Source: Actinomycetota bacterium
GTDB lineage: Bacteria > Actinomycetota > Thermoleophilia > Gaiellales > Gaiellaceae
Length of the DNA stretch: 12,608 bases
Direction: 5' to 3'
Assembly: GCA_003136795.1 (NCBI GenBank)
Contig: PLDP01000172.1
Coordinates: forward strand, 3,434 to 16,041
Of this stretch, positions 1 through 6,624 are shown in pieces; position 1 is the first letter of the stretch, and every line of letters starts with the position of its first letter. Below the pieces are notes generated by a model. It was not told the DNA's origin. It saw only the letters and a program-made list of their open reading frames with translations, and made no database searches. Position numbers and translations under genes: made by a program.

Positions 1-1111
1 CACCGGTTCGTGTCCCCCAACGCCTGGGCTGGAGGTCGGTTTTCGGATGCTCGCAGATCAGCTGGACTACATCGTCGGTGTCGACCCGAACCGCGACACG
101 CACGCGCTCGCGATCGTGCACATCGTCAGCGGCGCGGTCGTCGCCGAGTCGACGGTGCTCGCAAACAGCGACGGCTACGCCGCCGCGCTGAGGCTCGTCG
201 AGGAACACGCGCCAGGTCGACGCGCGTTCGCGATCGAAGGGACAGGCTCCTATGGCTTGGGGCTCACCCGCTTTGTTACCGGCCGCGGAGAGCGTGTGCT
301 CGAGGTTGGGCGGCTACGGCGGGAACGCCGCTCGGGCGGCAAGACCGACGCGCTCGACGCCGTGCGTGCGGCCCGCAGCGTCCTTGCGAACGAGCGGCCT
401 GCGACGCCACGGGCCGGCGGCGAACGCCAGGCGTTGCAGGCACTTGTGGCCGCCAGGGAGGGGGCGGTCAACGCCAAACGGGCCGCTCTCTGCCAGCTGC
501 GCGACCTGCTGGTCACAACACCCGAGCCGCTACGCAGCGAGCTGCGGCCGCTCACACGAGCACGGCTCCTGCAACGCCTCGCAGCAACCCGACCGCACGG
601 CCGACGCGACGCCGAGCTCCGCGGCAGCCTGCTCGCGCTCCGCTCGATCGCCCGACGTGTCCTGCAACTGACCGCCGAGGAACGCGCGCTCGCCCGCGAG
701 ATCGAAACGATCACTCGCAGGCTCGCACCACACCTGCTCGACCAACCAGGCGTTGGGACCCCACGCAGCCGCACAGCTCGTCCTCTCCTGGTCACACCAA
801 GGACGCATCACCTCCGAGGCGGCCTTCGCAAGGCTCGCCGGCACCGCACCGATCCCCGCCTCCTCCGGCCAAACAGTCCGCTACCGCCTCGACCGATCAG
901 GCGACCGAAAACTCAACCGCGCGCTCCACCAGATCCTCGTCACACGCAAACGCACTCATCCCGCCACGATCGCCTACATCGAACGCCGCCTCCAGGAAGG
1001 CAAGACCCGACGCGAAGCAAACCGCTGCCTCAAACGCTACCTCGCCCGCAGCATCTACCGCCTACTCGAACACGGACCGCCACCAGCGACTTGACAGACA
1101 TAGAAGCATCG
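1..1111 (+). mobile_element. IS110-family insertion sequence, right part
   Basis: The window opens just upstream of an IS110-type transposase, so the left end of the element lies outside. The right end is placed just after the tract TTGACAGACATAGAAGCATC (1091-1110), because that is where similarity to the local 38-bp repeat begins. IS110 elements lack terminal inverted repeats, so this boundary is inferred. In IS110-type elements a non-coding end encodes the bridge RNA that selects the target; only 46 bases precede the transposase here, so the RNA cannot be assessed. Confidence 0.65.
47..1094 (+). pseudogene. IS110-family DEDD transposase, frameshifted
   Basis: Transposase of the IS110 family, which recombines DNA with an N-terminal RuvC-like DEDD domain and a C-terminal domain with a catalytic serine. 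The N-terminal part shows the expected acidic residues: GVDPNRDTH near residue 11, AIEGTGSYG near 64 and KTDALDA near 100. The C-terminal part (SGQT, GDRKLNRALHQI) continues in the next frame from about 753 to the TGA at 1092-1094. One extra G in the GGG at 755-757 breaks the reading: removing it joins QPGVG to PHAAAQL, the usual family sequence. The start at 47 is preceded by GGAGG at 31-35, a slightly long spacing. With the shift the frame runs on to 1132 as unrelated arginine- and proline-rich residues. I know of no programmed frameshifting in this family, so a mutation or assembly error is more likely. Confidence 0.85.
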
Positions 1112-1129
1112 CTCGCGCAGGCAACGGTC
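1112..1129. repeat. Half copy (copy 0) of the 38-bp array repeat at the IS110 right end
   Basis: CTCGCGCAGGCAACGGTC matches 16 of 18 bases of the right half of copy 4 (4429-4446). The left half of the repeat is missing and IS110 sequence is found in its place. Confidence 0.55.
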
Positions 1130-1191
1130 TAGCGCCAACCCTCTCCCGAGGGATCGCGGGCGCAACTTGGAGCGGCTAGCTTGGCCGTGAC

Positions 1192-1662
1192 ATGAAGCTG
1201 TCGTCACTCCTCGCGCTCGCGCTGCTCATCGCGTGTTCAACAGCCACCAACGGCGACGCGGCAACGCTTGTTGCCACGGGCAAGTTCGACCCGTGCCCCT
1301 CTCTTAAAGACGTGCGCGCGGCCGGTGGGGTCTACACCCTGCAGCTGGCGACGACGGGCGTCATGCAGCGACTCCCGAAGGTCTATGGAGACATTGCACC
1401 GGGATACCCGTTCCGAGTTCAGCTGGTCGGGGGGATCTTGCTCGCTCGAAGATATTACGTGCCGAGCAAGAACAATCCGGCGGATCCGTTGCGCTACTAC
1501 CAAGCTGCCAGCCGCGTGTGCGGCCCCGGGATTGCAGGGATGTCTTGGGCGTTCACCGTCAACTTCCCGTACGCCGGAGGCGTCTTATGGGCCAGATACG
1601 TCGTTTTCGTGGTCAGAGCACGATCAGGATGGAAGCTCTACGGCGAACTGCCGCTTAACTGA
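1192..1662 (+). CDS. Putative small lipoprotein of unknown function
   Basis: A 156-residue protein with a lipoprotein signal: MK, a hydrophobic run SSLLALALLIA, then the lipobox LIAC with Cys15 as the likely lipidated residue. It is therefore expected to be attached to the outside of the cytoplasmic membrane. The mature part is short, has Cys35 and Cys109 that could pair, and ends in aromatic-rich strands (WKLYGELPLN); I recognise no family. No clear ribosome binding site precedes the ATG, but a TANNNT box (TAGCTT, 1177-1182) lies nine bases upstream, compatible with a leaderless transcript. It is the only plus-strand gene between the repeat copies and lies opposite to its four neighbours. 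Confidence 0.7.
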   Translation: MKLSSLLALALLIACSTATNGDAATLVATGKFDPCPSLKDVRAAGGVYTLQLATTGVMQRLPKVYGDIAPGYPFRVQLVGGILLARRYYVPSKNNPADPLRYYQAASRVCGPGIAGMSWAFTVNFPYAGGVLWARYVVFVVRARSGWKLYGELPLN

Positions 1663-1692
1663 GTAAGCCCTCAAACGCCTGAAGCCGCACAT

Positions 1693-1721
1693 GGGACATT
1701 CGCGGACACTGGCGCACCCGA
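1693..1721. repeat. Array repeat, copy 1
   Basis: Most degenerate complete copy. It reads GGGACATTCG then CGGACACTGGCGCACCCGA, aligning with copy 5 with one gap and a few mismatches. It lies between the convergent ends of the lipoprotein gene (stop 1662) and the hypothetical gene (stop at 1734), where no promoter would be expected. Confidence 0.6.
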
Positions 1722-1733
1722 GGGCGGCTGCGC

Positions 1734-2462
1734 CTACTCGTCTTCGTGAGGAAACAGCTGCCAGTTGATCGTGTCCCTCGCCATCGTGATCCCATCGGTC
1801 GGCTCCATCTTGAACGCCTCGAACGATCCGTCCGCCAGGATCTGGTCGATGCATGAGGAAGACCCTCCGACATAGCTGCTGTTGAGATCGATCTCGGTAG
1901 CGACACACCAAGTGCGATCGGATGGCCACCAAATGCTCGCCGATTGTTGTGAACCACGTTGTGGTTGGATCGCCGCCTCGATCGGACCAGCAAGCAGGTG
2001 ATAGCGACGACGCGGGAGCTCGAATACGGGTGCGCGCCTTATCTCGGTTGAGAGATTGCCCCAGCCCTCCCACACAGCGAGCCAGCATTCCTCTGAGCGC
2101 TCTGTCTGCTGGGCAAGGGTCGCAGCCAGCGGACGAGCGATCTCCGGGGGAAGCGAACCCAACCTCGGCGCCGTCTCCCAGCAGTCATAGGGACCGGGGG
2201 CGTAGTACTCCGCGCCGCCGAGAGCCGCCCACTGCATCTCCCGATGAACGACGCGTCCAGTAGTGCCAGCGACCTCGGCCCAGGTGACGACTCGATCTCC
2301 CTGTTCGGCTGGGTGAAGAATGCGGGCATAAGCGTCGAAGCCCGCGGGCACGAGCGACAAGACACTCTCGGCGAACGTGACCACACGCTCGACAAGCCAG
2401 TCGGCAGCCTCAGCCGACTCTGGAAGACGTACGAGGTCACTCATCGCTGACGACTCTGACAC
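1734..2462 (-). CDS. Conserved-looking hypothetical protein
   Basis: Encodes 242 residues from GTG at 2462; an ATG at 2444 (MSDLVRLP) is an equally plausible start. No signal peptide or membrane segment is visible, so the protein is probably cytoplasmic. The stretch SLVPAGFDAYARILHPA near residues 36-52 and a following tryptophan (VVTWAEVAG) look like a conserved core I associate with uncharacterised actinobacterial proteins. The C-terminal half is rich in tryptophan and acidic residues and ends INWQLFPHEDE. I assign no function. The gene is alone between repeat copies 1 and 2, with its stop 12 bases from copy 1. Confidence 0.7.
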   Translation of the reverse strand: MSESSAMSDLVRLPESAEAADWLVERVVTFAESVLSLVPAGFDAYARILHPAEQGDRVVTWAEVAGTTGRVVHREMQWAALGGAEYYAPGPYDCWETAPRLGSLPPEIARPLAATLAQQTERSEECWLAVWEGWGNLSTEIRRAPVFELPRRRYHLLAGPIEAAIQPQRGSQQSASIWWPSDRTWCVATEIDLNSSYVGGSSSCIDQILADGSFEAFKMEPTDGITMARDTINWQLFPHEDE

Positions 2463-2472
2463 GGTAGGCGCT

Positions 2473-2510
2473 CAGGGTGTCCTTAGGAACACTGGCGCAA
2501 GCGACCGTCG
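2473..2510. repeat. Array repeat, copy 2
   Basis: 38 bases beginning CAGGGTGTCCTTAGGAACAC and ending TGGCGCAAGCGACCGTCG. It matches copy 4 without gaps at 32 of 38 positions. It lies between the start of the hypothetical gene (2462) and the stop of the kinase gene (2526). The left half contains a near-palindrome around CCTTAGG. Confidence 0.8.
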
Positions 2511-2525
2511 ATCTCTTGGCGGGGT

Positions 2526-3548
2526 CTAAAGCCAGCGTTCGGCAAGCTCGAGGAAGGCTTCGTGCGCGGCGGCGGCGCCCAGGCGTCGGCTCTCGGATGG
2601 TTCGGGGCCGTACTCGCCGTTGACCCAGGCCGGTAGCCAGGCATAGCGCAATGCCGTTCCGAGCGCATAGACCTCGGCGGCCTCCTCGGAAAGTCGCTCA
2701 TCGGCGAGACCGTCACTGTAGGCAGCCCAGACCGCCGCAACCAGAGCTGCTGCTTCGCTGGCTTTGATGATCTCGTCAGCGAGTGCATCCGAAGCGAGGA
2801 CCCCGGCATCAGCGCCGATCGGGCCGAGACCGCAGTAGGCCCAATCGATGACTGCCATGCCACCCCGACCCGGGAAGACGTTGGCCGGGTGCAGGTCGAA
2901 GTGGCAGATCGTCTGCGATATCTGGTCGAGTCGGAGAAGAATCGCCTCCCGGTTCCCTGCGAATGGCTCGGCGAGATGATCCAATCGGGGCTCAAGGTAG
3001 GCGCGCAGAAACCCCGACGGAAGTCCGTTGGGCAAATCCCGGGACAGGCGTCCCTGTGCTGCTCCGAGCAGCCGCGCGACGTCCGCGACTGCCTCGACCG
3101 TCCACGACGCGGGCCGTCCGAGATCCTCTAGCCAAAGCGCAACCGATCCGTCTGTCCGCTCGCCGACGTGAAGCAACCGCGGAGCACGAAGCTCAGGTTC
3201 AAAGAGATCGGGGATGCCCTGCGCGTACACCGATGGCTCCCGGCGCCACCAGCGTGGATGTGCAGGGTTCTCTGACGCGCGCCAGTTCAGGTTGGGACTC
3301 GCACCTAAACGAAGCAGCTTCACGATCGCAGAGCCGCCGCCGCCCCGCACGCGCCAGACGCCGACTGTCGCCCCGAGTGGGCGTGGGCGCAGCGACTCCA
3401 GGCTCTCTATCTCCGGGTCACCAAGCACGAGCGCCGCTTCCTGCGGGAGCACAATCGTCGCCGTCCCTCCGTCGTGCGTCACAGTCGCATCAGTCACATA
3501 CGGCAGCCTAATCCCGCCCGACCGAAACCAGGCGTCACTTTCGAACAC
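2526..3548 (-). CDS. Aminoglycoside-phosphotransferase/choline-kinase-fold protein
   Basis: A 340-residue kinase-like protein of the APH/choline kinase superfamily, which transfers phosphate from ATP to a hydroxyl of a small molecule such as an aminoglycoside, choline or a sugar. Visible motifs are a candidate ATP-contacting Lys77 (AIVKLL), the hinge-like LWLEDLG (138-144), the catalytic loop HFDLHPAN (216-223) and the metal-binding aspartate in VIDW (233-236). The substrate cannot be read from sequence; resistance is only one option. The start used is GTG at 3548, which lies inside repeat copy 3, so the first residues MFESDAW are encoded by repeat sequence. A later GTG near 3494 is an alternative but would remove N-terminal residues. 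The stop is 15 bases from copy 2. Confidence 0.85.
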   Translation of the reverse strand: MFESDAWFRSGGIRLPYVTDATVTHDGGTATIVLPQEAALVLGDPEIESLESLRPRPLGATVGVWRVRGGGGSAIVKLLRLGASPNLNWRASENPAHPRWWRREPSVYAQGIPDLFEPELRAPRLLHVGERTDGSVALWLEDLGRPASWTVEAVADVARLLGAAQGRLSRDLPNGLPSGFLRAYLEPRLDHLAEPFAGNREAILLRLDQISQTICHFDLHPANVFPGRGGMAVIDWAYCGLGPIGADAGVLASDALADEIIKASEAAALVAAVWAAYSDGLADERLSEEAAEVYALGTALRYAWLPAWVNGEYGPEPSESRRLGAAAAHEAFLELAERWL

Positions 3549-3560
3549 TGGCCCAGGCGA
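3532..3560. repeat. Array repeat, copy 3
   Basis: CACTTTCGAACACTGGCCCA followed by GGCGA aligns with copy 4 with one missing base and few changes; the right end is less conserved (GTAACTACG). It fills the 16-bp gap between the kinase GTG (3546-3548) and the methyltransferase stop (3565-3567), and covers the start of the kinase gene. Confidence 0.65.
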
Positions 3561-3564
3561 GTAA

Positions 3565-4371
3565 CTACGCCGCCGAGCGAGATGCCTTCAATGAAAACAA
3601 GAACGGCACATCGTCACGGTCAGGCAAACCCCACCAGCCGTCACGGTCTTGAACCATCGACGGAAGCCACTGAAACGAGCAGAACGGGAACTCGTGAAGG
3701 AACTCAATTTGAAGTCCTGCGCTAGTAAGCGCGGTGATCACGTCAGACAGCGAGTGCTGCCACTGAAATGACAACCGATGTTCGAGAGCAGCGTCGCGGT
3801 CTGCGTAGGATCCATCACTCTCGTCCTTCATCGGCCCCACGTTGAAGTACGGCTCCGACGCAATCAGGCGGCCCTCACGCTCTTCGAGCATGCCGCCTAC
3901 CGGGTGCTGCTCCACGATGTAGAAGGTTCCCTCGGCTGCGACATAGCCCGCGACTACGCTCGCCCAACGATCCAGATCAGGAAGCCACGTCAGCACACCG
4001 TACGACGTGAAGACAACGTCGAATGTGCCGACTAGTTTGTCCGGCAGGTCGTAAATGTCAGAGCACACGAACTCGGCGGCGACACCTTCCTCTCGGGCAA
4101 GTTCGCGCGCCAGGTCGATCGCCGCGGGCGAGAAGTCGACGCCAACGACGCTCGCACCGCGCCGAGCCCAGGAAATCGAATCCATCCCAAAGTGGCATTG
4201 CAGATGCAGCAATCGCTTGCCCTTCACATCGCCGACCTCGCGGACTTCGATAGGCCGAAGCGTCGAAGCGCCCGCGCGGAATGCGGCTAGGTCATAGAAG
4301 CCACCAGCAGCATGAACGGACACCAGTTCATCCCAAAGGAGGCGATTTGCGTCAAGCGGTGACTCGCTCAT
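3565..4371 (-). CDS. Class I SAM-dependent methyltransferase
   Basis: A Rossmann-fold methyltransferase. The SAM-binding motif I reads LLHLQCHFGMDS and is followed by GVDFS at the end of strand 2 and CSDIYDL as the post-II acidic motif. The ATG at 4371 (MSESPLDANR) is preferred over an in-frame TTG at 4380; neither has a strong ribosome binding site. The length of about 268 residues is normal for a stand-alone small-molecule methyltransferase, and the C-terminal half (SFQWQHSLSD, FCSFQWLP) resembles proteins annotated only as class I methyltransferases. The substrate is unknown. The gene is alone between copies 3 and 4, with its stop four bases from copy 3. Confidence 0.85.
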   Translation of the reverse strand: MSESPLDANRLLWDELVSVHAAGGFYDLAAFRAGASTLRPIEVREVGDVKGKRLLHLQCHFGMDSISWARRGASVVGVDFSPAAIDLARELAREEGVAAEFVCSDIYDLPDKLVGTFDVVFTSYGVLTWLPDLDRWASVVAGYVAAEGTFYIVEQHPVGGMLEEREGRLIASEPYFNVGPMKDESDGSYADRDAALEHRLSFQWQHSLSDVITALTSAGLQIEFLHEFPFCSFQWLPSMVQDRDGWWGLPDRDDVPFLFSLKASRSAA

Positions 4372-4407
4372 CGATCCCAAGATTACGCCGAGCAGGCCGC
4401 GAACCCT

Positions 4408-4446
4408 CAGGGTGCATTTCGGAACACTCGCGCAGGCGACCGTCGG
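4408..4446. repeat. Array repeat, copy 4
   Basis: Begins CAGGGTGCATTTCGGAACAC and ends TCGCGCAGGCGACCGTCGG. It is the best match to copies 2 and 5. It lies between the methyltransferase start and the GNAT stop. The preceding ACCCTCAGGGT (4403-4413) forms a short palindrome at its left edge. Confidence 0.8.
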
Positions 4447-4473
4447 TAACGCGAACCCGTCGCGATGTGCGGT

Positions 4474-4935
4474 CTATGAGAGGTCGAGACCCATCACCGG
4501 ATTGACTCGACCCCACAGACTAAGGTCGCCGTCGCGAACATACTGGCCGCCCATTTTCTCGTAGAAGCCAAGGGCATTTGGTTCGGCCTCCCACTCCATC
4601 CGGACCGCGCCCGACTGCCGTCCCACGTCCATTGCGTGTCGAAAGAGCTGGCTTCCGATGCCCTGTCCCATCCATTGCGGATCGATCCAAAGGTCGTCGA
4701 GCCACAGAGCGTGTCCTTGATGAATTGCGGCCAGCCAGCCGACGAGCTACTCATCAACCGAAGCGACGTAGACATCCTTCCGGGCGAGCTCCCGGGGGGA
4801 GAAGTCGCCCATCGCCGCCCACCCCGTCACGCGCGTTAGGTCGTAACCCCACGAAGCCTTCGCTGCTACCGCGATCTCCCGCAGCCGCTCACCCTCGTCG
4901 GGTGCGACTGCTCGAATACACGCATTCATCCGCAC
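4474..4935 (-). pseudogene. GNAT-family N-acetyltransferase with internal amber codon
   Basis: One 154-codon frame holds a complete small GNAT acetyltransferase, which transfers an acetyl group from acetyl-CoA to an amine. It is interrupted by TAG at codon 63 (plus-strand 4747-4749). The frame reads DVYVASVDE, stop, LVGWLAAIHQGHALWLDDLW, continuing into the acetyl-CoA-binding motif QWMGQGIGSQLF and the usual C-terminal EPNALGFYEKMGG. Because both sides are in the same frame, this is a single nonsense change rather than a frameshift; CAG or GAG would restore it. The start is GTG 4935 or ATG 4929. A fragment could restart at the ATG at 4671 (MGQGIG), but it would lack the N-terminal half of the fold. 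The gene lies between repeat copies 4 and 5. Confidence 0.85.
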
Positions 4936-4951
4936 CCACGATAGTGTCGTT

Positions 4952-4991
4952 CAGGGTGCATTCGTGAACTCTGGCGCAGGCGAGCGCACGG
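4952..4991. repeat. Array repeat, copy 5
   Basis: Begins CAGGGTGCATTCGTGAACTC and ends TGGCGCAGGCGAGCGCACGG. CAGGGT and ACTCTG can pair as a 6-bp stem (one G-T wobble) around a 10-base loop. It separates the minus-strand GNAT gene from the plus-strand hydrolase and is the last copy I find in this direction. Confidence 0.75.
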
Positions 4992-4998
4992 CGCTCAC

Positions 4999-5749
4999 AT
5001 GAAGCATGAAGCAGAAAAGGATCGAACGACGCAGCTCGAAACATTAGGCACAGGTACCCCGCTCGTTCTAATTGGCGGTAGTGATCGCGGCCTCCAGGCG
5101 TTTCCATATCAGCTTCCGTTGGCCGAGGAGGGCTACCAGCTAATCGCTCGAGTGCCTCGCTCTGAGTTGCCCGAAAGTGTCGACTTTGAAGAAGAAGCGT
5201 CGAGGCTCAATGAAGTGCTGCCTCATCAAGCACTACACGTTGTCGGTCACTCTTGGGGCGGCCTTACAGCGCTGCATCTCGCTGCGCTTCGTGCTGAAAA
5301 CATTGGGTCGTTGTTGCTTATTGAGCCGGCTGCTATGAGCGTCGCTAACGATGAGCCGTCTTGTTAGAGCTCACATCGATGCAGTCGGAGCTGTGTTCAA
5401 AGAGAGCAACCGCCTATCAACTCAGGAGCTTAATGTGGCCTTCCGAGCAGCCCGTGGTGCTCCCAATAAACCTCGGCGGTTAACTGACGAAGAAACGTTT
5501 CGAATGGAACTCCTCCGACGGCAGCGCCTGCCGTGGACTGCTCATCTGCCGATTAGGGCGCTCGGCAGTGCAGGATTCAAGAAGCTAGTCGTAACCGGTG
5601 GATCCGACGCCATGTACGAGGTCGTTGCGGACCGGCTGGCTGATCTAATCGGCGCACAGCGCGAGACGGTCGTGGGCGCAACTCACCGAGTTCAAGATGC
5701 ACCCTCCTTTAACTCTCTATTGCAGCGCTTCGTGCAAAGCACTAGGTAG
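4999..5749 (+). pseudogene. Alpha/beta hydrolase, frameshifted
   Basis: A small alpha/beta-hydrolase-fold protein of about 250 residues with the nucleophile elbow GHSWGG (residues 83-88), a candidate oxyanion region LVLIGGSD (23-29) and, in the second part, the acid in GGSDAMYE and the histidine in GATHRV. The first frame stops at TAG 5365-5367; the fold continues in the next frame from about 5363. One extra T at 5361-5362 accounts for the break: removing it joins NDEPS to VRAHIDAV. The substrate is unknown. The segment from here to about 6650 is visibly less GC-rich and uses more A/T-ending codons than the flanking genes, which suggests a different origin. The ATG at 4999 lies eight bases after repeat copy 5 and has no clear ribosome binding site. 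Confidence 0.8.
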
Positions 5750-5796: not shown

Positions 5797-6624
5797 ATGA
5801 AGGAACGACTTGGCCGCGGCTTTGACGAGCCGATTGAAGTGGCATCTTTGCTGGGGCCCGAAAGCAGCCGCTATGTGACCGAACTCGTCCTCCGTCTAAA
5901 GCGTGTCCTCGAACCGAAGCTCGAGGGTGTGTACCTGCACGGATCCGGCGCACTTGGCGACTTCACTCCGAGTCGCAGCGACATTGACATCATTGCGGTG
6001 TCTTCGGCTCGGCTATCGGGAGACGAGCGAACTCGGCTTCGAGAAGAGCTGTCTCCGGCCGCGCTGCCGTGTCCTGCGGCTGGGCTCGAGTTCCACGTCG
6101 TTGATAGGAAGAGTCTCGGCACGGTCGCTGAATCTCCGCTCTTTGAAGTTCACGTCGCCACCGATAGCCGGAACAGAACGGAGAAGTTCGTCGATGGCCA
6201 CGGACATAAGGGCGACACTGACCTTGTTATGCACTATGCGGTTCTCAAGGCACATGGGATCACGCTTGCCGGGCCACCAGCTTCAGAGGTCTTTCCGGAG
6301 GTGCCGCGCCATCTTCTGCTGCGAGCATTCCGAGATGAGCTCGCGTGGGCAGCTCGGCACGCATCACCCAGCTATCAAGTACTCAATGCTGCGCGCGCAT
6401 GGAGGTTCGTCGACGAGAACGTCATCTGCTCGAAGACTGAGGGAGCTGAATGGGCACGCTCACGCGTCGCCGACGCGTCCGTCATCGATCAAGCCCTGCA
6501 GCATCGGCGCGGCTTAACAGACGCGTACCCAGACAGCGAGACATCGATGGCGCTTCTCGACGAGGTCCGATTGCGTCTCGACGAGGGAGACCTCATTCGT
6601 GATTGTCGCTTAGGTTCGGCTTGA
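5797..6624 (+). CDS. AadA-like nucleotidyltransferase
   Basis: A 275-residue protein of the ANT(3'')/AadA-like nucleotidyltransferase group, whose known members adenylylate streptomycin or spectinomycin. The polymerase-beta-type motif is clear: HGSGALGDFTPSRSDIDIIA, with Gly-Ser at 49-50 and the two metal-binding aspartates at 62 and 64. LEFHVV carries Glu98 in the position expected for the third acidic residue. The C-terminal helical part (DELAWAARH, NAARAWRFVDE) matches the usual layout of an AadA-type second domain. The start ATG 5797 follows a purine-rich GAGAAAATGAG. The length is close to that of AadA. Resistance activity is possible but not shown, because many soil homologues have unknown substrates. 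Confidence 0.8.
   Translation: MKERLGRGFDEPIEVASLLGPESSRYVTELVLRLKRVLEPKLEGVYLHGSGALGDFTPSRSDIDIIAVSSARLSGDERTRLREELSPAALPCPAAGLEFHVVDRKSLGTVAESPLFEVHVATDSRNRTEKFVDGHGHKGDTDLVMHYAVLKAHGITLAGPPASEVFPEVPRHLLLRAFRDELAWAARHASPSYQVLNAARAWRFVDENVICSKTEGAEWARSRVADASVIDQALQHRRGLTDAYPDSETSMALLDEVRLRLDEGDLIRDCRLGSA

Follow-up and report, generated by a model that had tools for sequence, protein, structure and literature searches.

Integrons are the best-known bacterial route for collecting single genes into ordered arrays. Among the other described systems, staphylococcal cassette chromosome (SCC) elements are tens of kilobases long and sit at one conserved gene, and dif modules are bounded by Xer sites in alternating orientation. 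To our knowledge no cassette array uses a serine recombinase, and a literature search aimed at such a system, with subscription journals mostly outside its scope, found none. According to PMC3783163, known large serine integrases insert phage DNA into one site and require a further factor for excision; integrons are described as very rare in Actinobacteria in PMC9024848. The array described here lies in a stretch of 12,608 nucleotides, the window (contig PLDP01000172.1; C63:3434-16041 in our numbering), of a metagenome-assembled genome (MAG) of the family Gaiellaceae, order Gaiellales (2.6 Mb, 289 contigs, 81% complete). It consists of genes separated by copies of a repeat, called REP, and in related genomes such arrays often begin with a second type of site, called HEAD.

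Comparison of sequences shows a mobile system that spans the family and is made up of units of mostly one gene; it has two types of site, and its breakpoint zone lies within the repeat. The sites resemble those of large serine recombinases, so that this may be an integron-like capture system built on a different enzyme. We put the probability at roughly 0.7 that the Gaiellales arrays are a serine-recombinase analogue of the integron, with HEAD corresponding to attI and REP to attC.

REP arrays in the window and in related genomes

The REP consensus is CTCRGGGGWCATTCCCGAACACTSGCCCAGGCGAG. A first-pass annotation, made from the letters of the window, had reported five copies of the repeat and a half copy at 1112, all of which proved real. 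The five are 40-nt units on the plus strand (starts in Table 1), the pair 2471-2510 and 4406-4445 being identical at 34 of 40 positions (85%). The half copy belongs to a sixth repeat, of which it is the right half (position 21 onwards); an IS110 element separates the two halves. The sizes of the intervals, the orientation of the genes and the distances of stop codons from the repeats are also about as described there. The array continues leftward to the end of the contig, and no Rfam family matches in the window. A matrix built from four window copies, which reaches at most 11 bits in shuffled sequence, finds 23 copies on five contigs of the same genome, the weakest at 24.8 bits, and a REP sequence model gives 57 matches there at E <= 10 and 40 at E <= 0.01.

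In 86 fetched regions (933 kb), 225 REP copies reach a threshold of 15 bits, a number that rose to 280 when regions were added; shuffled sequence gave none at 9 bits or more. Neighbouring copies less than 3.5 kb apart have the same orientation in 136 of 138 pairs, at a median spacing of 614 bp. Intervals of 200-3500 bp, of which there are 198 in 107 single-orientation regions, have a median length of 634 bp and hold, according to a simple gene picker, one gene in 149 cases, two in 34, three or more in 4 and none in 11. The main cassette genes lie on the repeat strand in 95 cases and on the opposite strand in 92, and their GC content at third codon positions (GC3) is 0.75 (n=153), against 0.87 outside (n=258). 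The commonest Pfam families in a scan of 140 of the 187 picked genes are acetyltransferases (GNAT, up to 13 proteins), glyoxalase (7), APH (6), hydrolases and methyltransferases. A library of defence models matched the same 140 proteins with 15 models, most frequently mad2, found in 5. The repeats thus form many arrays in related genomes, which supports the view of the window as a gene-cassette array put forward in the first-pass annotation.

The range of REP was surveyed at E <= 0.01 in 151 genomes, namely the genome of the window and 150 relatives. Matches were found in 63 of them: 62 belong to the family of the window, its own genome included, and one, with a single match, to a different family of the same order. 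The genus of the window is represented by 13 genomes, four of them without a match. The filters of the survey are strict and some sites are missed; G023 gives no match, yet it has a HEAD - gene - REP unit. The exact REP pattern is present in 36 GTDB stretches, nearly all of them MAGs labelled Actinobacteria in a wide sense, including Candidatus Gaiellasilicea (Gaiellaceae), and single records carry the depositor labels Chloroflexi, Pseudonocardiales and Solirubrobacterales. Three exact patterns had no match in viral contigs, and phages and plasmids gave chance-level matches only (E about 0.5).

A hairpin, TGGTGTCTGACACC..GGTGTCAGACACC, stands directly to the right of several REP sites of the window's genome (L010, L012, L095, L249) and of G003 (L144, L145), and it is either a REP-like element or a terminator of a cassette family.

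Movement of units and position of the breakpoint

The flanks of all REP copies were compared pairwise. Homologous copy pairs (n=31) match to the left only in 13 cases, to the right only in 18 and on both sides in none, and a looser comparison of flanks gave 21, 14 and again none; two of the left matches do not exceed 110 nt, and one of these two is an IS110 end. Repeats standing between conserved genes in stable order, the outcome by which the first-pass annotation would have recognised an ordinary intergenic repeat, were therefore not seen. A joint breakpoint fits best at position 27 in the 30 pairs that are 70% or more identical, with 1811 of 2000 bootstraps at 24-29; the peak is also at 27 in 21 pairs with no copy in common, and at about 40 in random copy pairs. 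For matches of at least 150 nt (11 left, 7 right), positions 21-29 lie within 3 ln units of the best, 24, position 30 is worse by 13.2 and position 18 by 8.6. The fits thus place the breakpoint within the repeat, not to the right of 29 and with a left limit at about 21. As the first-pass annotation had foreseen, units have different surroundings and break inside the repeat, but they do so in a zone of about 9 bases and not at one fixed base.

A cassette of the glyoxalase family is 94-96% identical among G068, G003 and G114, which belong to three genera, and is followed on its right by unrelated sequence; long aligned pieces of the xer region of the same genera are 68-74% identical (G071 and G017 stand in for G114). 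In G026, a 237-bp stretch occurs with 99% identity on two contigs, each time with a different right neighbour. As far as these alignments go, arrays exchange units with one another, also across genera, and the breakpoints fall within the repeat at 21-29. G003 has a second copy of the glyoxalase cassette (L353, 8727-9164, on G003:C159), flanked by two REP sites.

The gain and loss of sites can be followed at the ilvA locus, where an array of 3.2 kb (contig C61 of the window's genome) extends from ilvA to a metallo-hydrolase/rhodanese gene, both names being given by eye. In three genomes of the same genus, G005, G004 and G001, the aligned flanks lie 48, 33 and 19 bp apart without any REP or HEAD, so that the empty sites sought in the first-pass annotation do exist. 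The locus is occupied by one other gene with a HEAD in G003 and by two other genes, with no site, in G008. The comparison indicates that arrays or heads are gained or lost here, and that part of the variation at the locus does not come from cassettes. In G002 (L306, G002:C54, about 4330-4420) a short REP-like insertion stands at this locus, formed by a different repeat, GAATCTGGTTCGGC..GCCGAATCAGATTC.

The HEAD site and the geometry of the two sites

HEAD, with the consensus TCRGGCGWRAGSACGCTSGCCCAGGCGAGCG, is found at the left end of the oriented arrays and has a core in common with REP. It came to light in a search for which only the right part of the repeat was used: among matches outside REP and at most 2.6 kb from the 107 array regions, 45 lie upstream on the same strand and 4 upstream on the opposite strand, the corresponding downstream numbers being 7 and 2. 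A HEAD matrix gives at least 12 bits in 31 of the 44 upstream matches with full flanks, and the remainder are worn-looking REP or other sequence. A recognised head is present in 42 of the 107 regions. Several heads occur per genome, some precede single genes without REP, and two can follow each other. A model from 26 heads matches in 11 of 13 genomes at E <= 0.05, weakly in G030, G016 and G024 (0.008 or worse), and gives no HEAD match in G007 and G013, neither of which has a REP match at E <= 0.01. In one case a cassette is found after both types of site, standing after HEAD in G093 and, as a homologue, after an internal REP in G085, with 84% identity over 380 nt.

A palindrome scan over all centres and six gap sizes in 275 REP and 57 HEAD sites places the most palindromic centre of both at a 2-bp gap at positions 28-29, the left arm extending to 27 and the right arm beginning at 30 (score in REP 0.529, mean 0.276, standard deviation 0.056). 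This centre is the right edge of the breakpoint zone, and its bases are conserved in REP, C at position 28 in 99% and A at position 29 in 97% of copies. The outer motif TCRGG starts to the left of the centre, at a distance of 26 bp in 178 of 280 REP sites and of 21 bp in 20 of 63 HEAD sites, the others carrying variants of the motif. In the LI integrase, the ZD motif of attB lies 5 bp nearer the centre than that of attP, as stated in PMC3783163, and the 5-bp shift between REP and HEAD matches this attP/attB shift. Both consensus sequences had been fixed before they were compared with this rule.

An inverted B-type (HEAD-like) right half of at least 10 bits is present in 8 of 276 REP sites, one of which is the site beside the recombinase gene of G110 described below. 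The other seven (L078_9927, L136_2457, L136_2870, L147_7501, L164_8868, L180_119 and L181_1406) have a right arm like that of a hybrid attR-type site. An inverted REP half occurs in none of the 276 REP sites and in 5 of 84 head-type sites, namely three recombinase sites and two REP read from the other strand (centre TG).

A clade of large serine recombinases beside HEAD

Serine recombinases were searched with PF00239 in 20 genomes, 15 of them rich in arrays and 5 without REP match at E <= 0.01. Nine of the 20 have matches, and seven array-rich genomes have none. One clade has members in G072, G079, G092 and G110 and a further one, noticed beside a HEAD, in G065. The five proteins carry the three domains of large serine recombinases, PF00239 (catalytic), PF07508 (recombinase) and PF13408 (zinc-ribbon), and the members are 53-56% identical to the first; relatives at E <= 1e-40 number 2531 among 7996 scored proteins. 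In all four cases with upstream sequence (G110, G092, G079, G065) the gene begins 0-15 bp after a HEAD match, and in G072 the contig starts within the gene. A HEAD half joined through CA to an inverted REP half (21.8-26.0 bits) makes up three of these four recombinase sites. Behind the recombinase gene of G072:C2 come seven REP matches in the same orientation, three of them of 18.7-19.6 bits. Neither HEAD nor REP is matched at the 13 other PF00239 loci, for which at most about 1.5 kb to each side was scanned; a longer stretch around one of them, G079:C36, contains one REP at a distance of 2.5 kb. No HEAD- or REP-type sites occur in the stretches examined around four viral relatives of the recombinase. 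At L356, L365 and L189, in three genomes of two genera, the recombinase stands together with a G2P-type gene, that is, a replication gene of phage or plasmid type.

Proposed mechanism

A unit has a short left end (about GGCGAG...) and a conserved right end (about CTCRGGGGWCATTCCCGAACACTSGCCCA), between which there is usually a single gene, on either strand. In the proposed model, units would join at the invariant CA, positions 28-29. The enzyme would be a large serine recombinase, with HEAD as the attB-type partner in the role of attI and REP as the attP-type partner in the role of attC. Recombination between HEAD and the REP of a circular cassette, at the 2-bp CA overlap, would give HEAD - new gene - REP, and HEAD would stay available for further insertion. 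Since HEAD x REP recombination would also excise the first cassette, units would be gained and lost symmetrically at that position. Most genomes, that of the window included, would keep arrays without an enzyme and rely on transient elements that bear the recombinase. The role of the serine enzyme and the activity of HEAD x REP are inferred, the case for both being one of sequence. With moderate confidence we further propose that this is an independently evolved analogue of the integron, in which a large serine recombinase captures one-gene cassettes, an attB-type half site taking the part of attI and an attP-type one that of attC, the one-sided outer motif giving a reusable head and bypassing the one-way rule of serine integrases.

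Several observations weigh against this proposal, and the main one is that the recombinase is missing from most of the array-bearing genomes checked, that of the window included. In the PF00239 search the clade is present in just 4 of the 15 array-rich genomes and in none of the 5 others, so co-occurrence alone gives no support, and it was not found in the window's MAG (81% complete) or in G073, which is 94% complete and has 21 sites. Incomplete MAGs with contigs ending in arrays may conceal a recombinase. The G2P-type gene accompanies the recombinase in G065, G079 and G110, so that the sites may derive from a small integrative phage or plasmid and the recombinase could be an integrase merely targeting HEAD sites. 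At the recombinase site of G092 the inverted REP half scores poorly (-2.9 bits), and most right halves of both HEAD and REP lack the outer motif that a complete serine attachment site should carry. The breakpoint data are also less sharp than the model would have them: 10 of the 18 right matches are of 100 nt or less, mostly the hairpin element of the window's genome and G003, and the matches of at least 150 nt give a flat fit over 21-29, best at 24, with just 1271 of 2000 bootstraps at 24-29, so that CA is not pinned. Finally, the cassette common to G093 and G085, the sole clear case of its kind, begins to match 12 nt past the HEAD and 64 nt past the REP.

Alternative explanations

A cassette system could instead be run by a tyrosine recombinase, either the housekeeping XerC/XerD pair known from dif modules or an integrase of integron type that escaped notice, with serine elements only targeting HEAD, an explanation that we find unlikely and still take seriously. 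Of 26 genomes searched, some with arrays and some without, 25 have two XerC/XerD-like genes as read from the list of matches, and these are the sole PF00589 matches in G003, which has 20 sites; the zone at 21-29 would also be compatible with a tyrosine enzyme of wider overlap. Against this, the tyrosine recombinase that the first-pass annotation expected at one end of the array was not borne out, the large serine recombinase being the better candidate in spite of its absence from most genomes checked. A profile from 67 putative recombinase open reading frames (ORFs), not specific to IntI, matched in 3 of the 86 regions: a Xer pair without array (L096), a Xer gene (L150) and a phage-type gene (L191), so that, the Xer locus aside, no tyrosine recombinase stands regularly beside arrays. 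Moreover, the sites are uniform in orientation, their best palindrome centre is of 2 bp, and the 5-bp shift between the site types has no reason under a tyrosine enzyme. REP and HEAD are presumably unlike dif, which was not located in these genomes. A divergent tyrosine recombinase of 715 aa encoded in the window's genome (G000:C184:5062-7206) was considered as the enzyme and rejected, it and its relatives occurring in just 4 of 151 genomes; it is found in G000 with a close relative in G011 alone, and weakly in G046 and G049, which belong to another family.

The layout of an attI-like head followed by gene-site units, the many arrays without enzyme and the cargo would also fit a degenerate true integron, a cluster of attC sites lacking the integron integrase (CALIN), and we nonetheless hold this to be very improbable. 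Pairs of attC boxes (RYYYAAC / GTTRRRY), whose absence had already been noticed in the window, surround 3 of 271 sites, against 1.8 expected from shuffling; the flanks hold no inverted partner of the repeat at word lengths of 7 or 8 and a slight excess on the right at 9 (11 against 2); the strongest covarying REP columns are not complementary pairs; and cassette genes point in both directions. Sites of attC type, and hairpin-folding sites in general, were therefore rejected, on the boxes at chance level and the flanks at lengths 7-8. For a REP-like or regulatory intergenic repeat with no part in recombination speaks the position of the repeats in short intergenic gaps close to gene ends, an idea to which we give next to no credence in view of the one-sided homology, the breakpoints inside the repeat, the cassette common to several genera, the GC3 difference and the empty sites. 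Hardly more credible is movement of the units by IS110-family transposases. An IS110 does lie inside a REP site of the window's genome, and by eye IS110-like ends adjoin the repeat at another position in L193 and L180; however, the 6 of 20 genomes in which IS110 (PF01548) was found do not include G003, G066 and G072, with their 20, 36 and 24 sites, and the IS110 insertion point, 20/21, is just outside the breakpoint zone of the cassettes.

Other features of the window

The features of the window are collected in Table 1. The IS110 element starts about 92 bp left of the window (C63:3342-3433 being the outside part) and seems frame-shifted, since by eye its C-terminal part (753-1094) and its DEDD domain are in different frames. 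The true start of the APH gene is probably internal, as the listed one overlaps REP 3. To the right of the last repeat, a hydrolase (4999-5749) is split over two frames; together with the frame-broken acetyltransferase-like ORF it represents either decaying cargo or sequencing errors. Further on, past the last recognised repeat, 5797-6624 encodes a nucleotidyltransferase with an AadA_C domain (E 1.7e-13).

Table 1. Sites, cassette genes and insertion element of the array (positions in the window)
Feature	Position	Strand	Basis or remark
IS110-family element within a REP site, between its positions 20 and 21	1..1110	+	PF01548, E 1.4e-10
REP right half (positions 21-37) of the site split by IS110	1111..1127	+	left half at C63:3322-3341, outside the window
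Cassette gene, possible lipoprotein or secreted protein	1192..1662	+	by eye; no Pfam match
REP site 1 (proposed attC-like, attP-type), central CA 1715-1716	1688..1722	+	matrix match
Cassette gene, 242 aa, no assigned function	1734..2462	-	no Pfam match
REP site 2, central CA 2498-2499	2471..2505	+	matrix match
Cassette gene, APH phosphotransferase family	2526..3548	-	PF01636, E 3.7e-10
REP site 3, central CA 3554-3555	3527..3561	+	matrix match
Cassette gene, S-adenosylmethionine (SAM) methyltransferase	3565..4380	-	PF13649, E 5.6e-13
REP site 4, top score within the window, central CA 4433-4434	4406..4440	+	matrix match
Cassette gene, acetyltransferase-like, in-frame stop in ORF	4474..4935	-	by eye
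REP site 5, last recognised site of the array, central CA 4977-4978	4950..4984	+	matrix match

Significance and comparison with known systems

If the serine-recombinase interpretation is true, a second cassette system on an unrelated enzyme would suggest that the capture of single genes evolved more than once. It would help to explain the variable gene content of uncultured soil Actinobacteria and would open a pool of cassettes not yet read. Half-sites without the outer motif would permit repeated insertion and removal without a directionality factor, a property that would be useful in DNA assembly.

The arrays share with integrons and CALINs a distinct head, tandem and mostly one-gene units each bounded by a site, similar cargo and many arrays without enzyme. 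They differ from them in having no attC boxes, no complementary covariation, no bias in gene orientation and several heads per genome, and in that the best candidate for the enzyme is a serine and not a tyrosine recombinase. With large serine integrases they share the three domains, the 2-bp palindrome centre, the 5-bp shift of the outer motif and a gene adjoining a hybrid site; those enzymes act at one site, whereas here dozens of small units use the sites. SCC elements, with their Ccr serine recombinases, and the composite islands they form have in common with the present arrays a serine recombinase, tandem elements and sites in direct repeat, and are set apart by their size and by their single location, the intervals here having a median of 634 bp and lying at many loci. 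The dif or pdif modules of Acinetobacter, which depend on XerC/XerD, likewise consist of small gene modules between short sites that insertion sequences target, but the orientation of the sites is uniform here. Around REP/BIME intergenic repeats the gene order is expected to be stable, which is not the case around the copies studied here. Integrons and dif modules thus each fail in at least one feature, and SCC elements differ in scale and placement.

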